Shown piece after piece: positions 16,222 to 34,660 of a stretch of DNA of 43,684 bases. Numbering within the stretch: position 1 is the stretch's first letter; each line of letters begins with the position of its first letter. The position numbers and the translations under genes were made by a program. The notes beneath the pieces were generated by a model. That model saw only the letters and a program-made list of their open reading frames with translations, was not told where the DNA came from and did no database searches. Source of the stretch: a virus; the IMG/VR virus record IMGVR_UViG_3300022074_000101, positions 1 to 43,684 of that record. One strand, 5' to 3'.

Positions 16222-17076
16222 ATGACCATTACACCCACCACATCACGCACATTCGGTGTTGAGTTTGAGGGATTCGGTATTCCAATTCATACTCTTGTTG
16301 ATCGCTTACGGGCTGCTGGCATCAACGCTCAGTCAGCCAGTTACTCTGGTTCAAATTATCGCGTATGGCAAGTAAAGCCAGATGGATCAATAAGCGGTAG
16401 TCACGGCTTTGAAGTTGTATCTCCTGTACTGTCTTCCATGAACGGCATATTGGAAGTAAAAAAGGTACTCCAAATTGTTCGCGCAAACGGTGGTGATGCC
16501 AACAAGTCTTGTGGCTTTCACATTCATTGGGGCGTATCTGATTGGCGCATGAAGCACTTCCGTAATTTTTACAAGCGTTGGTCAAAATTTGAGCGTGGCA
16601 TTGATATCACTCAGCCACAGTCACGTCGCGGAGACAATGCTTACTACTGCAAGTCTGTTTATGCTTTGCCAACATACACGAACAACACAACCGAAACAAA
16701 AGCCTTAGTCGGCCATATGTTTGATCGCATTGATCGCTGTCGCTCAGTCGGTCAGTTGCGTGAAATGATACAGGGTAGCCACAGTAGATACTGCAAGCTA
16801 AACCTTGCCAAGTTTCACCGCACCGGCACATTAGAGATTCGCCAGCACTCCGGTTCATTTGATGAAGCCAAGGTTTTGAATTGGATTGCACTTACTGGCG
16901 CAATGATTGCTGATGCAGATAACGGCAAGGCTGTCAAAAACTTCTCAGTTTCTCCGTCTCCAAGCAAGGTACTCGACACCCTTCTTGGAGGACTTGTGCG
17001 GGTTGGGGGCATTAGTGCCTCCACCCGTATCTTTTTCAAAAAGCGGGCAAAGGAACTCGCTGATAGGAATTCATAA
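16222..17076 (+). CDS. Amidoligase enzyme (COOH-NH2 ligase family, Amidoligase_2)
   Basis: A 284-residue protein with the family hallmarks in order: FGVEFEGFGI near the N-terminus, WQVKPDGSIS, GFEVVSPVLSS, NKSCGFHIHWG and, late, LEIRQHSGS followed by an aromatic NWIALTG. These motifs belong to glutamine-synthetase-like ATP-dependent amide ligases that join a carboxyl to an amine, often glutamate-like or peptide substrates. In other phages such enzymes are linked with GGCT/AIG2 proteins, as here. The substrate is unknown; candidates are a peptide tag, cell-wall peptide or nucleotide-linked amino acid. It is first in a three-gene operon with 1-nt overlaps. Confidence 0.9.
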   Translation: MTITPTTSRTFGVEFEGFGIPIHTLVDRLRAAGINAQSASYSGSNYRVWQVKPDGSISGSHGFEVVSPVLSSMNGILEVKKVLQIVRANGGDANKSCGFHIHWGVSDWRMKHFRNFYKRWSKFERGIDITQPQSRRGDNAYYCKSVYALPTYTNNTTETKALVGHMFDRIDRCRSVGQLREMIQGSHSRYCKLNLAKFHRTGTLEIRQHSGSFDEAKVLNWIALTGAMIADADNGKAVKNFSVSPSPSKVLDTLLGGLVRVGGISASTRIFFKKRAKELADRNS

Positions 17077-17312
17077 TGAACTATTGGATAACTTATGATG
17101 GCCGTTCATTTGTAGCATCAGATGCGGCCACCTTAGTTGATCGTTATAGGAACGACACCATAATTGAAACTAAGGATGCTAACGACTTTATGAAACAGAT
17201 GTGCGTTTGGACCAGATTATATTGCGATGCACAACTTGACCCCACGACACCAGATACTTTTGTGCAGTCACTGTTGGACAACAAACTGATCACCAAATGG
17301 GAGATGAACTAA
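17076..17312 (+). CDS. Hypothetical protein between amidoligase and GGCT genes
   Basis: A 78-residue protein beginning MNYWITYDGRSFVASDAATL, joined to the amidoligase stop by TAATG and to the next gene by TAATG. It has no recognised domain. It starts with a short beta segment and then a helical region (RYRNDTIIETKDANDFMKQM). The tight coupling on both sides suggests it works with the amidoligase and GGCT proteins, possibly as an adaptor or substrate peptide. It lacks the poly-Glu or Gly-rich tail that would mark an obvious substrate. Function unknown. Confidence 0.65.
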   Translation: MNYWITYDGRSFVASDAATLVDRYRNDTIIETKDANDFMKQMCVWTRLYCDAQLDPTTPDTFVQSLLDNKLITKWEMN

Positions 17313-17761
17313 TGGATATCATTTACATGGCATATGGATCAAACATGGACAAAGGTCAGATGGCTCAAAGATGTCCTGACGCAAAACCTTTAGGAGCGAT
17401 GCTTTTGCCTGAATGGCGGCTGGTGTTTCGCGGCGTTGCTGACATTATACCCGCAACGGGCTTCCTATGCCCCGTGGCAATGTGGAAGATTACAAAGGCT
17501 TGTGAGGACAGCCTTGATATTTATGAAGGCTACCCTCGACTCTATGGCAAGCAATACTGGCAAGGCGGTGATGGAATTGTATATATGGCTTACACCATGA
17601 ACCGTGATGGATTAGCCATGCCCCCAAAGATGTACCTAGATGGCATTGCTCGTGGGTATGACGATTTTGGTGTGGATTTAAAGTATCTACAAGAAGCCTT
17701 AGACTTTACTGATGAATACGACAGTAATGATGGACACATACCCAAAAGGTATAGGGCTTAA
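17312..17761 (+). CDS. Gamma-glutamylcyclotransferase-like protein (GGCT/AIG2 family)
   Basis: From ATG 17312 (GGAG 8 nt upstream, TAATG overlap) the product is 149 residues. It begins MDIIYMAYGSNMDKGQMAQR: YGSN is the signature substrate-binding loop of the GGCT fold. The phrase LDIYEGYPRLYGK near residue 70-82 includes the conserved catalytic-type Glu and Tyr. This family cyclises gamma-glutamyl groups to release 5-oxoproline, and in phages is often paired with amidoligases. Here it may trim or reverse a gamma-glutamyl-type amide made by the upstream enzyme. It meets the convergent ParB-like gene tail-to-tail with overlapping stops. Confidence 0.88.
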   Translation: MDIIYMAYGSNMDKGQMAQRCPDAKPLGAMLLPEWRLVFRGVADIIPATGFLCPVAMWKITKACEDSLDIYEGYPRLYGKQYWQGGDGIVYMAYTMNRDGLAMPPKMYLDGIARGYDDFGVDLKYLQEALDFTDEYDSNDGHIPKRYRA

Positions 17762-18300
17762 CCGCCCTCCATCCTGCTAAAGTCAGGAACCCACCCATCT
17801 TCAAACTCATCATCAGGGTCGCCTTTTGTATCAGGCGATCCTGCATTGTCATACAGACGCTCTATTTCATCTGGCTCCATGCCTAAATGTTGTTGAATCC
17901 ATTGATCGTCAACACCCTGCTCATCTTTCAGACTTCTAACAATATCAGCCATGCTCATGACAAAATGGCTACCTCTGGCCCTGTTATGGGTAATAGTTGC
18001 TGAAACCTGTTCAGCCATACCCATATCATCAGGTAACATCACAACAGGAACCATGCCACCTGTATATTCAGCTACCCGATCATCACCAGAAACCAACCAC
18101 CTATGAAACCCATCTACGATTTCATTGTTTGATCTGATAACCACAGGCTGAGTCCATCCGCAAGTTAGGATTGACTGTACCAGTAACTCAAGCTCAACAG
18201 GAGCAACCTTGTTAGGATTGTATGAGTTGGCGTGAAGGGTATCTCTATTGACCCAATGAACACTATTTATGGGTTGGGCTTCTGAACCTTGCTTCATCAT
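17758..18300 (-). CDS. ParB-like nuclease-domain protein (IbrB-like)
   Basis: I choose the ATG pair at 18300/18297, just after AAGGAAG; a longer frame to 18372 lacks such a site. The product is about 180 residues. An N-terminal ParB/sulfiredoxin fold is visible: INSVHWVNRDTLHANSYNPN, LVQSILTCGWTQPVVIRS, then NEIVDGFHRWLVS. The C-terminus is acidic and ends DDEFEDGWVPDFSRMEGG. It directly follows a PAPS-reductase-like gene, the same pair as IbrA-IbrB of enterobacteria and phages. The ParB-like partner may bind a nucleotide or DNA and direct the ATP-pyrophosphatase partner. The reaction is not known. Confidence 0.85.
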   Translation of the reverse strand: MMKQGSEAQPINSVHWVNRDTLHANSYNPNKVAPVELELLVQSILTCGWTQPVVIRSNNEIVDGFHRWLVSGDDRVAEYTGGMVPVVMLPDDMGMAEQVSATITHNRARGSHFVMSMADIVRSLKDEQGVDDQWIQQHLGMEPDEIERLYDNAGSPDTKGDPDDEFEDGWVPDFSRMEGG

Positions 18301-19471
18301 ACTTCCTTTTTTGCTTGAGGGCTTCCTCAGTACCGCCTTGTATGGTTGGCTGCTTCCTGCCTTTGAAATCACCCCTCACAGCTATCTTTAAAAGAAAATC
18401 CCATGATACGCCTGTGCGTGGGTGAGCGATTTTATCCATCAATGGCTCATTAGTCTTGCCGTAGTGATTCTGTATGAACCCCCGTATTCTCTCAGCTACT
18501 TGAGTCTTGTATGGCTCTGGATGCTTATCAACCCAAAACTTTATAAACTCATGCCACGACATATTTTCTGGCTTGGCAGGGGTTTTGCCATAAGAATAAA
18601 GAACTGTAGTGGAGTATCTAGCGGCTGTTGCAGCACCCGCCACTCTAGTCTGCATCTTATCCCATATATCCGGCCAAAGCTCTCTGAACTGATGCAAACC
18701 ACGCATAGGCTCCTCACCATACGGAGGCGCACAACGCTGAGCGTTAGGGCTTATACCGCCCTTATCCATACGATCATAAGCGTGATTATAGTCCCAACCA
18801 AACTTTCGCGGCGCAGTCCATATGTCTTTGGTGTTCCAATCATAAACTGGATAGACCTTGTAGATATTACCCTGTGATGATCCTTCATCATATTTGATGA
18901 TGTGCTTATCTTCACGTTTTTTGCTGTTCAGGATAGCTCTGGTTCTGGTCAGGCTCTCATCGGCCCGTATACCCATGATTATGCCCACGTTTCCGTGTTT
19001 CTCTGGAGAGAATATGTATCCATTGATTTCTGGTATAGTTAATCGCTTATCAGGATCAGTTGGAAGACCGTCTAAATGGCTCAATCCCTCTGGCGGCATT
19101 GGCCTGACCCACTTATGCTCATCTTCTGGCCCCCAAGGAAACCACCAAGGCTCTTTTACTGAGCAAGCATTTCTATGTCTGACAGGCAAACACCACCAAT
19201 ACATATCAACCATAGGCATTTGAGCGACACGCCTGACGTATTCTTCTGTATCATATGGGATTGCTTCTTCATCAAAGTGATGGACAGGAACTTTTTTTAT
19301 TCCTCGCTCCTGCGCCACTCCCAACGTCAACATCAGACACGCCGTTGAATCCTTGCCGCCACTAAACATAACGGCAACGGTATCGAATCGATCATACGCT
19401 CTGTGAATACGTTCAATAGCCAATTCATAGACGTTCTTATCTATGATTTTTTTCTTACCGAGACGGCCCAT
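18263..19471 (-). CDS. PAPS-reductase/ATP-pyrophosphatase-like protein (IbrA-like)
   Basis: A 402-residue protein. SGGKDS (residues 37-42) is the PP-loop of N-type ATP pyrophosphatases and PAPS reductases. Later parts include HFDEEAIPYDTEEYV, GIIMGIRADESLTRT (family motif G-x-R-x-DES), VYPVYDWNTKDIWTAP and CAPPYGEEP. These features match IbrA-type proteins, which are longer than metabolic PAPS reductases. The enzyme probably adenylates a substrate and may transfer sulfur or another group; related DndC/SspD-like enzymes act in DNA phosphorothioation, though that specific role is not shown here. It starts 2 nt after the bicupin gene and overlaps the ParB-like gene. Confidence 0.9.
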   Translation of the reverse strand: MGRLGKKKIIDKNVYELAIERIHRAYDRFDTVAVMFSGGKDSTACLMLTLGVAQERGIKKVPVHHFDEEAIPYDTEEYVRRVAQMPMVDMYWWCLPVRHRNACSVKEPWWFPWGPEDEHKWVRPMPPEGLSHLDGLPTDPDKRLTIPEINGYIFSPEKHGNVGIIMGIRADESLTRTRAILNSKKREDKHIIKYDEGSSQGNIYKVYPVYDWNTKDIWTAPRKFGWDYNHAYDRMDKGGISPNAQRCAPPYGEEPMRGLHQFRELWPDIWDKMQTRVAGAATAARYSTTVLYSYGKTPAKPENMSWHEFIKFWVDKHPEPYKTQVAERIRGFIQNHYGKTNEPLMDKIAHPRTGVSWDFLLKIAVRGDFKGRKQPTIQGGTEEALKQKRKYDEARFRSPTHK

Positions 19472-19473
19472 GC

Positions 19474-20157
19474 CTACTTCCCGTGATCAATGTACGTTCT
19501 GTTGATCATTGAATGATTTTCATCAGTTGGCCCTGTATCACTGTCTGGATGAAACGCTACAATATCCATTCCGCTATCTGATGTTCTAAAAGAATGAAGC
19601 TCTTGTTCTGTTAGCATAAAGATGCAGCCCTTTTTTAAAGGCTTAACCCATCCATCGCTGTGATTGCTTTTTTCTTGGAACGCTTCGCCCTCACCTTTGA
19701 TGACACAGCCCATGCGGATTGACGGGTGGGTATGCTGTGTTTGATATATACCAGTGGGGAAATGCAAATAATTTAAAACCGGATCACCCATTCTGGCCAT
19801 TGACACCAAAACACTATCTGAACAGCCATCAATGTACGAAAGCCGTCCGTTATCCTCAATCTGACCCATAACAGGCATAACCCTGTAGCCTAACTTGGTC
19901 ACTGTCCACATCTTCAGATCGTCAGATTTCATAATGTTGAATGACCCAGAAAATGCGAAATAGTTGCCTTCCTGTAATCGCCACTCTTGTTTATTGGCCC
20001 TAACAGTACAGCCGCCCTCTAAAACATATCCGTATGTTGAAGCGTGAGGCAAACCGAGATCATCCGCATCATTTGTAAAAAACATAGCGTAGGTCGGATA
20101 CATGGTCTCCAAAGCTCGGATTCCATCACTGTGTTTCGGGTCATAATTGATTTCCAT
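19474..20157 (-). CDS. Bicupin protein
   Basis: A 227-residue protein with two cupin-type beta-barrel halves. The first (about residues 40-75; YVLEGGCTVRANKQEWRLQE) lacks clear metal ligands. The second (about 135-205) has QTQHTHPS with His142 and His144, Glu156/158 in IKGEGEAF, then LHSF with His188, which together match a metal-binding cupin. It may be a dioxygenase, isomerase or ligand-binding sensor acting on the product of the neighbouring PAPS-reductase-like enzyme. ATG overlaps the ParB-like stop by 1 nt and the next gene begins 2 nt after the stop. Such a cupin is not part of the usual IbrA-IbrB pair that I know of. Confidence 0.8.
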   Translation of the reverse strand: MEINYDPKHSDGIRALETMYPTYAMFFTNDADDLGLPHASTYGYVLEGGCTVRANKQEWRLQEGNYFAFSGSFNIMKSDDLKMWTVTKLGYRVMPVMGQIEDNGRLSYIDGCSDSVLVSMARMGDPVLNYLHFPTGIYQTQHTHPSIRMGCVIKGEGEAFQEKSNHSDGWVKPLKKGCIFMLTEQELHSFRTSDSGMDIVAFHPDSDTGPTDENHSMINRTYIDHGK

Positions 20158-20765
20158 TAGACTAACTCTTTCGTTATTTTCAACAATGCTTGAGTGGTGT
20201 TTTCCAAACCTTCTTGGTTTTGGATAGATCGAAGTGCAGATAAAACCATGTCCCGATCTATTGGTGACATTACAAAGCTCATTGTCACATAATCGCCCAC
20301 TGAACCAACAACATCTGAATCCTGCACATTTGTTTCCTTGTCTGAAATCATGTCATTGAGAAACTCAATATCACTGTTTGGCAAATTAATATCAATGCTG
20401 GCCCATAAATGTCTAAACGCCTCCAACTCACCGCTATCAATAGATGCCATCTCAGCTTCAAGCAGGCCATCATCCCAAGCGGTAAGCTCATTTAGTTTGT
20501 TATCTAAAATACGGAATGCTTTTATTTGATCTTTTGTGAGGTTAGCAGAAACCTTGATTGGCACGGTATCTAAGGAAAGCCTCTTGGCTGCTAGAAACCT
20601 AGTATGACCCGCTATGATTACATTATCGCCATCAACTACAATTGGCTGCTGCCATCCAAAGCTAGAAATGCTGCTGGCAACAGACGCAACCGCTGACTCA
20701 GAAATGATGCGTGGGTTGGCGGTATAGGGTTTTACATCTGTAATTGGTACTTGCTTGATTTCCAT
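20157..20765 (-). CDS. ParB-like nuclease-domain protein
   Basis: A 202-residue protein starting MEIKQVPITDVKPYTANPRI, a typical ParB N-domain opening. It continues with SSISSFGWQQPIVVDGDNVI and IAGHTRFLAAKRLSLDTVPI, carrying the family GHTR-type motif, and ILDNKLNELTAWDDGLL. In many phages this domain is fused to a DNA methyltransferase, but here it is free. The C-terminal 90 residues are a separate acidic segment. It is first in a four-gene operon with two ParB-like proteins at its ends. It may bind CTP/ATP or DNA and provide specificity to the cassette. A palindromic operator lies just upstream of the start. Confidence 0.88.
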   Translation of the reverse strand: MEIKQVPITDVKPYTANPRIISESAVASVASSISSFGWQQPIVVDGDNVIIAGHTRFLAAKRLSLDTVPIKVSANLTKDQIKAFRILDNKLNELTAWDDGLLEAEMASIDSGELEAFRHLWASIDINLPNSDIEFLNDMISDKETNVQDSDVVGSVGDYVTMSFVMSPIDRDMVLSALRSIQNQEGLENTTQALLKITKELV

Positions 20766-34084: not shown

Positions 34085-34660
34085 ATGGCTTATGCGATAC
34101 CGCCTAAATTACGAGACAAAGAAGTGGGTGTGATGGCCGCTGATCAAATCAGCCTTTCATCTTGTGCATCCATCATAGAACTTCACAAGGATTCACGAAA
34201 CCTGTCTGTGCAGGGTAGAATACAAAAAGATAATTCAAATGTTGTGAACGTAGGTGTAAGGCAAACAGATGTTTACATAATCCATGAATTTCACAGTTGG
34301 GTTGATGAGCTTATTATTAATTGCGCCAAACTCGCCAATGACCAGTTTGACTTCAACCTCACAGGATTGTTGGAGCGTCCACAGCTATTGAAGTATTCCG
34401 CACCATCAAAAGGATATGATTGGCATTTAGATATAGGCATGGGCGATTCCTCAACACGCAAGATAAGCGTATCCATACTGCTAAATGATGATTATGAGGG
34501 CGGTGAGTTGGCTTTTTTTACAGATGGAGAGACTGACATAAAGCCAGATTTAGGAACCGCTATAGCCTTCCCCTCGTACCTTCCCCACAGAGTCTTGCCT
34601 GTCACTAAAGGTGTTAGGTGGTCGCTGGTCTGTTGGATTGCGGGTGAACCGTTCCGTTGA
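34085..34660 (+). CDS. 2OG-Fe(II) oxygenase, PKHD/prolyl-4-hydroxylase type
   Basis: A 191-residue protein. H114 and D116 (YDWHLDIG) and H168 (SYLPHRVLPVTKGVRWSLV) form the iron triad, with R178 for 2-oxoglutarate. YEGGELAF is another family phrase. It is close to PiuC-type hydroxylases. Marine phages often carry such oxygenases, suspected to modify host or virion proteins or nucleotides. It follows SleB directly, with AAGGAG before the start. Its last 111 bp overlap the convergent gene at 34550, an unusual antisense arrangement. Confidence 0.92.
   Translation: MAYAIPPKLRDKEVGVMAADQISLSSCASIIELHKDSRNLSVQGRIQKDNSNVVNVGVRQTDVYIIHEFHSWVDELIINCAKLANDQFDFNLTGLLERPQLLKYSAPSKGYDWHLDIGMGDSSTRKISVSILLNDDYEGGELAFFTDGETDIKPDLGTAIAFPSYLPHRVLPVTKGVRWSLVCWIAGEPFR

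Follow-up and report, generated by a model that had tools for sequence, protein, structure and literature searches.

What do two ParB-domain proteins, a bicupin and a PAPS-reductase-like PP-loop protein do together in a phage? The question is raised by four adjacent genes in the IMG/VR virus record IMGVR_UViG_3300022074_000101, which was analysed over its whole length of 43,684 bases (hereafter the window). The head, tail, packaging and replication genes of the record are siphovirus-like; no tRNA was found in the window. The four genes form one tight operon on the minus strand (17758-20765) and encode ParB1, the bicupin, IbrA and IbrB. For this cassette, a first-pass annotation had proposed either a chemical modification (of DNA, a nucleotide or a sulfur metabolite) or a transcription-linked regulator. 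A literature search found no paper joining ParB, PAPS reductase, cupin and phage. Judging from gene context and protein sequence, we lean towards an accessory cassette with which the phage would hypermodify its own DNA after replication.

The slot beside the primase-helicase

Sister loci were found with a primase-helicase profile, and the genes following it were read (n = 74). Open reading frames (ORFs) were called mechanically, several contigs are fragments, and the E-values and co-occurrence counts given here ignore phylogeny. In the window, the cassette has the primase-helicase on one side and a convergent amidoligase/GGACT block on the other, and the terminase adjoins. An IbrA/cupin cassette is present in 28/74 loci, and TAGT, Tet_JBP, ADDT or ABC-GNAT genes are nearby in 0/28. 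Among the 46 cassette-less loci, 20 have such a gene near the primase-helicase, and ParB1 is adjacent in 14 of these 20. The exclusion gives a Fisher p of 1.9e-5, a value that is overstated because the lineages are related and contigs are cut. TAGT, Tet_JBP and ADDT were confirmed by Pfam as DNA-hypermodification families.

ParB1 switches between these partners. In the ParB1 tree, the TET/ADDT-linked proteins (L293, L328) nest within those of the IbrA cassettes. Near the terminase, L290 (confirmed by Pfam) and L325 (profile match) encode a fusion of a ParB1-like domain with an N6/N4 DNA methylase. Relatives such as L320 have nothing between primase-helicase and terminase; hence, the cassette is accessory. 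As genes are swapped and inserts come and go, the site acts like a slot for interchangeable DNA-modification genes that have ParB1 as their common partner. The window cassette lies at the same locus, and with the same ParB1 partner, as the TET/TAGT/ADDT cassettes of sister phages. At L328:5915-10188, a kinase, ADDT, a GNAT-like protein, a glutamine amidotransferase, Tet_JBP and ParB1 stand in one minus-strand run beside the primase-helicase, which by its predicted products is a rich DNA-hypermodification operon.

Recurrence of the four-gene neighbourhood had been set as a test in the first-pass annotation, and the outcome was decisive: cupin and ParB1 occur with IbrAB in many loci. The cassette recurs in dozens of diverged viral contigs, from many uncultivated phages, with its order usually unchanged, and in the window's own lineage and its relatives the order ParB1-cupin-IbrA-IbrB is maintained to about 33% IbrA identity. 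The bicupin profile picked out 442 candidate viral loci; 80 of them, the most taken from any one scan, were considered, and 73 newly fetched loci were examined. IbrA and/or IbrB were found in 44 of the 73, and five have the cupin with ParB1 only, on contigs ending close to the cupin. The remaining 24 are large phage contigs without IbrAB. Pure phage synteny was rejected as an explanation of the cassette, because it persists in unrelated backbones and is missing from close ones.

Large phages (L238-L261) are a second home of the bicupin. In 22 of the 24 large-phage loci, it lies near a PP-loop protein with an SGGIDS or SGGADS motif, which is asparagine-synthetase-like by motif and has no Pfam match. 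Some of these loci add PP-loop, radical SAM or ATP-grasp proteins, and L246 has an AMP-binding-methyltransferase fusion. The extra enzymes suggest small-molecule or nucleotide chemistry. A TctC receptor near the bicupin in L260 (12697-13623, minus strand) hints at a small-molecule theme shared by the bicupin's contexts.

The bicupin family was seen almost only in viruses. In about 800 genomes from two bacterial phyla, nothing scored above 28 bits as a bicupin, against 236-353 bits for viral positive controls. The cassette DNA had no match in 50,697 phage records, and protein searches of phage isolates with three different bicupins gave none either.

The four proteins and their operon

IbrA (18263-19471, minus strand, 402 aa) exceeds the Pfam curated cut-offs for both PAPS_reduct and DUF3440 and matches PHROG 2302 (2.5e-87). 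Its PP-loop motif FSGGKDS spans residues 36-42, and this motif and many catalytic-type residues are invariant among the IbrA sequences aligned. Of the curated models, CysD, PAPS reductase and DndC are nearest, but IbrA is far under every equivalog cut-off. It reaches 21.4 bits with PAPS reductase (CysH, TIGR02057), for which the cut-off is 254, and 27.8 against 290 bits with DndC (TIGR03183; E 1e-6 in NCBIfam, 3.8e-9 in PADLOC). A C-terminal catalytic Cys motif (ECGxH-type) was not found in the IbrA sequence. Conservation is 92-100% for Cys94 and, within clade 2 of the IbrA tree, 90% for Cys103; in the E. coli-phage IbrA, residue 94 is Ala. An argument against sulfur chemistry from a 12-sequence alignment, in which IbrA had no conserved Cys, was dropped, as Cys94 is near-invariant in the larger set. 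Sequence searches of the PDB with single cassette proteins were uninformative, and profiles gave generic PP-loop and cupin relatives only.

In a tree of 101 sequences, IbrA falls into two clades (100 SH-aLRT, branch 1.16). Clade 1 comprises the classical IbrAB loci, including those of E. coli and Streptococcus, and the window IbrA is not among them. It belongs to clade 2, which is mostly viral and holds every bicupin locus (41/52). The other clade-2 loci combine ParB1 with a sodium:solute symporter (SSF), TctC, an aldehyde dehydrogenase, a second PAPS_reduct protein or a class-II glutamine amidotransferase; some cassettes gain both of the last two. The symporter, aldehyde dehydrogenase or TctC receptor stands between ParB1 and IbrA in place of the bicupin (L032:3599-5035, L033:919-2343, L036:3602-5008, L041:2756-3598 and L043:4160-5017) and is unusual phage cargo.

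Cupins have joined IbrA/IbrB independently about three times. Besides the bicupin, an unrelated mono-cupin is carried by five bicupin-less clade-2 members (L034, L036, L039, L040 and Streptomyces L109), and in the Gaia-like group of the classical clade an EctC-like cupin is fused to IbrB or stands free beside it. About three recruitments are strong evidence of a shared function. No cupin was found in L286, L288, L290 or L325, nor in most classical loci as far as scanned. In L171, a locus of a Prevotellaceae metagenome-assembled genome, TAGT and ParB1 profile matches adjoin classical IbrAB, which may be a direct co-occurrence of the two systems.

Sequence matches of the bicupin (19474-20157, minus strand, 227 aa) are to generic barrels only (Pfam Cupin_2), and its profile also hits the AraC_binding/RhaR sensor barrels. 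With ectoine synthase (NF009806), it reaches 14.4 against 128 bits, and the EctC-type His/Glu pattern is absent. C112, D114, H142, H144, R148, H188, H203 and H215 are invariant in 49 relatives, and the whole second barrel with its HxH...H motif is extraordinarily conserved. The first-pass annotation had read an HxH...E...H metal site here; the alignments correct this to H-x-H...H. As the canonical Glu position is taken by Met149 and the invariant Arg148, H142, H144 and H188 look like a putative 3-His metal site rather than a 3-His-1-Glu site. An AlphaFold2 model from the 49 relatives reached a predicted local distance difference test (pLDDT) score of 94.1 and a predicted template-modelling (pTM) score of 0.90 (pLDDT 67.8 for a 6-sequence model). 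Foldseek returned 271 PDB matches at E<=0.001, and the best solved structural matches are the bicupins EF2996, YlbA, AerE, BacB and oxalate decarboxylase (template-modelling score 0.55-0.67). The model thus places the protein in the cupin superfamily, with a double-stranded beta-helix and a predicted metal-binding His cluster. It shares this fold with the solved bicupins, but at 9-18% identity, and, unlike them, has a signature of its own, GRLxYIDGC...QTxHTHPSxR...HPDxD.

The two ParB-domain proteins are near-constant partners of the cassette. ParB1 (20157-20765, minus strand, 202 aa) is a free ParB/Srx N-domain protein with a GHTR motif and matches Pfam ParB_N over the cut-off (E 2.4e-9). It also matches PHROG 620 (3.5e-42), PHROG 498, the ParB part of phage DNA methyltransferases (7.6e-35), and, with residues 1-153, PADLOC MTase_II (1.2e-20). 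IbrB (17758-18300, minus strand, 180 aa), the adjacent ParB-domain partner of IbrA, is under the ParB_N cut-off (E 2.9e-4), and PHROG 2159 (1.2e-59) secures the assignment. From our reading of the sequence, its C-terminal part appears helix-turn-helix-like. A role in partition was rejected for the two proteins, as they score 33.9 and 19.7 bits with TIGR00180 (cut-off 58.45) and no parA was seen among Pfam or PHROG matches in the immediate neighbourhood of the cassette.

The ORFs and junctions confirm the single minus-strand operon of the first-pass annotation. ParB1 and cupin share a 1-nt overlap (TAATG), and cupin and IbrA are separated by a 2-nt gap (TAG-GC-ATG). The best start of IbrB is the ATG at 18300, which is preceded by the ribosome-binding-site-like sequence AAAAAAGGAAG and gives a 38-nt overlap with IbrA, where about 35 nt had been noted; a longer version from a GTG at 18372 is less likely. 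The strong terminator described upstream corresponds to an intrinsic terminator-like hairpin on the minus strand (20857-20830), between primase-helicase and ParB1. Its stem is GGGAGG/CCTCCC in the window and GGGGGG/CCCCCC in relatives, a compensatory change. Of the palindromic operator claimed there, a short conserved inverted repeat, TCCCAAAATGGGG, is what stands (20785-20773, minus strand), just upstream of the ParB1 start; it is a leader or operator candidate.

Next to the cassette, Amidoligase_2 (16222-17076; Pfam 2.6e-31), a 78-aa ORF and GGACT (gamma-glutamyl cyclotransferase-like; 17297-17761) follow in series on the plus strand (16222-17761). GGACT is just under the Pfam cut-off (E 1.8e-4) and matches PHROG 2520 (6.5e-25). 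It is convergent with the cassette, overlaps the IbrB stop and is found in most related loci. Amidoligase_2 travels with it: the pair is linked in most related phages, including TctC-type loci, and stays together when it lies on the opposite side of the primase-helicase (L197, L199, L200). The two resemble a gamma-glutamyl protect/deprotect pair. Elsewhere in the window, a 2OG-Fe(II) oxygenase is encoded at 34085-34660 on the plus strand (Pfam 5.5e-17).

Weighing the explanations

We infer a scheme in which DNA is the substrate. Through its PP-loop, IbrA would consume ATP, release pyrophosphate and adenylate a carbonyl or carboxylate, either of the base or of the incoming group, which would let an amine or sulfur nucleophile be coupled. 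The bicupin, as a metal enzyme, would make or reshape the added group. IbrB and ParB1 would target the complex to DNA, providing DNA binding and the handling of nucleoside triphosphates (NTPs) like ParB-superfamily companions in other DNA-modification systems. The modified DNA would then be packaged, hidden from host nucleases and so protected from restriction. As to the nucleophile, the analogy with CmoY (below) and the glutamine amidotransferases speak for nitrogen, and Cys94 and the clade-2 Cys103 would allow sulfur.

DNA hypermodification is supported by the swapping with TET, TAGT and ADDT genes, in which one ParB1 family serves both kinds of cassette, and by the match of ParB1 to the ParB part of phage DNA methyltransferases. 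It also has precedents. In phage S-B43, the asparagine-synthetase-like ligase CmoY attaches glycine to 5-carboxymethylcytosine in DNA; contigs with the CmoY pathway widely carry ParB-domain genes and glutamine-amidase-bearing ligases (PMC12783734). The Dnd and Dpd DNA-modification systems each have a ParB-like companion, DndB and DpdB respectively (PMC10853773, PMC12839542). Further support comes from the roughly three cupin recruitments, from the bicupin joining an asparagine-synthetase-like PP-loop family and from those cassettes in which a second PAPS_reduct protein is accompanied by a class-II glutamine amidotransferase. Hence, within the broader chemical modification first proposed, DNA in particular gains strong support from the sister-phage context and from the PP-loop/ParB precedent (PMC12783734).

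Several observations weigh against this reading and feed other explanations. Phage records annotate IbrA/IbrB as co-activators of prophage gene expression, the cupin profile reaches the AraC_binding/RhaR sensor barrels, and ParB folds bind NTP and DNA. IbrA and IbrB, with ParB1, could bind DNA and serve as an NTP-dependent co-activator of transcription or as a regulator of host takeover, with the cupin as an AraC-type ligand sensor, and no chemical modification would take place. We regard this as a live but much less likely rival, since the PP-loop motif and many catalytic-type residues of IbrA are invariant, the HxH...H motif and second-barrel conservation of the bicupin suit an enzyme better than a sensor, and TET/TAGT/ADDT genes replace the cassette at its locus. 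The symporter, TctC receptor and aldehyde dehydrogenase that relatives carry in this slot suggest small-molecule metabolism instead. The cassette could be an auxiliary metabolic one, fed by transporters, that makes or activates a small molecule such as a carboxylate, sulfonate or amino-acid derivative, and DNA would not be its target. In L260, TctC again accompanies the bicupin, other cupins have AMP-binding and ATP-grasp enzymes nearby, small-molecule bicupins are among the nearest solved folds, and amidoligase and GGACT are linked to the cassette. Two near-constant ParB-domain partners are, however, needless for a metabolic pathway, and the locus is held in common with DNA-hypermodification genes, so that we give this explanation the same low weight as the regulator.

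The near-invariant Cys94, together with Cys103, would also suit sulfur transfer. IbrA would then be a DndC-like sulfur transferase that inserts sulfur into the DNA backbone or a base via Cys94/Cys103, and the ParB proteins would be DndB-like, DndB being in the ParB superfamily. DndC, CysD and PAPS reductase are indeed the nearest curated families, yet the DndC score is a small fraction of its cut-off, DndA, DndD and DndE were not seen among the window ORFs scanned, the E. coli-phage IbrA has Ala94, and glutamine amidotransferases accompany some clade-2 members. This explanation is less probable than the two before it. The preferred reading also has to contend with the lack of a handle-maker (TET, TAGT, CmoA/CmoX or DNA methyltransferase) among the window ORFs scanned. 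PP-loop enzymes modify tRNA. Modification of RNA or protein, or a counter-defence factor that depletes NTPs, might thus be considered, as ParB/Srx proteins hydrolyse NTP (PMC12839542). No RNA-related domain was found among the window proteins scanned, and both the position of the cassette and its swapping partners are DNA-centred, which makes this the least probable explanation.

A wider proposal, which we put forward tentatively, is that the cassette may represent an undescribed class of phage DNA hypermodification, with a new group attached jointly by a PAPS-reductase-like PP-loop enzyme and a mostly viral bicupin. The bicupin would be a tailoring enzyme common to this and the asparagine-synthetase-like PP-loop pathway of large phages, and classical IbrAB would be a DNA-modification enzyme, not a transcription factor. 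The labels given to IbrA/IbrB, in many bacterial genomes as well as in hundreds of phage records, are vague ("PAPS reductase", "ParB partition", "co-activator"). Tying the two proteins to a repeatedly recruited cupin and to a slot of swapped DNA-decorating enzymes gives the pair a concrete testable function and flags unexplored chemistry.

Comparison with known systems

The IbrA/IbrB pair of E. coli prophages and of Streptococcus and Flavobacterium phages has the same domains, PP-loop motif and adjacency as the window's pair. The window IbrA differs in belonging to a separate clade, which is associated with a bicupin and a second ParB gene. Mycobacteriophage Gaia gp103-gp104 is similar in that a ParB protein with an attached cupin comes after IbrA. 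Gaia differs in that its cupin is of an EctC-like kind, fused to IbrB, its IbrA belongs to clade 1, and ParB1-bicupin is absent.

The cassettes of TET, TAGT and amino acid:DNA transferase (ADDT) share the ParB1 family and the position by the primase-helicase, whereas their catalytic genes are entirely different. Dnd phosphorothioation and the Dpd 7-deazaguanine system come close through DndC, a PP-loop relative, and through the ParB-like DndB and DpdB; DpdA and DpdC, like the missing Dnd proteins, were not seen among the window ORFs scanned, and the DndC score is far under its cut-off.

The phage cytosine-hypermodification pathway CmoA/CmoX/CmoY (PMC12783734) resembles the window cassette in its PP-loop ligase, which is of the asparagine-synthetase type, its ParB-domain partners and its optional glutamine amidase. 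Neither Cx-SAM synthase nor C5-carboxymethyltransferase was found in the window ORFs scanned (some small ORFs lay outside the scan). Compared with that pathway, the window IbrA is PAPS-reductase-like and a cupin is added.

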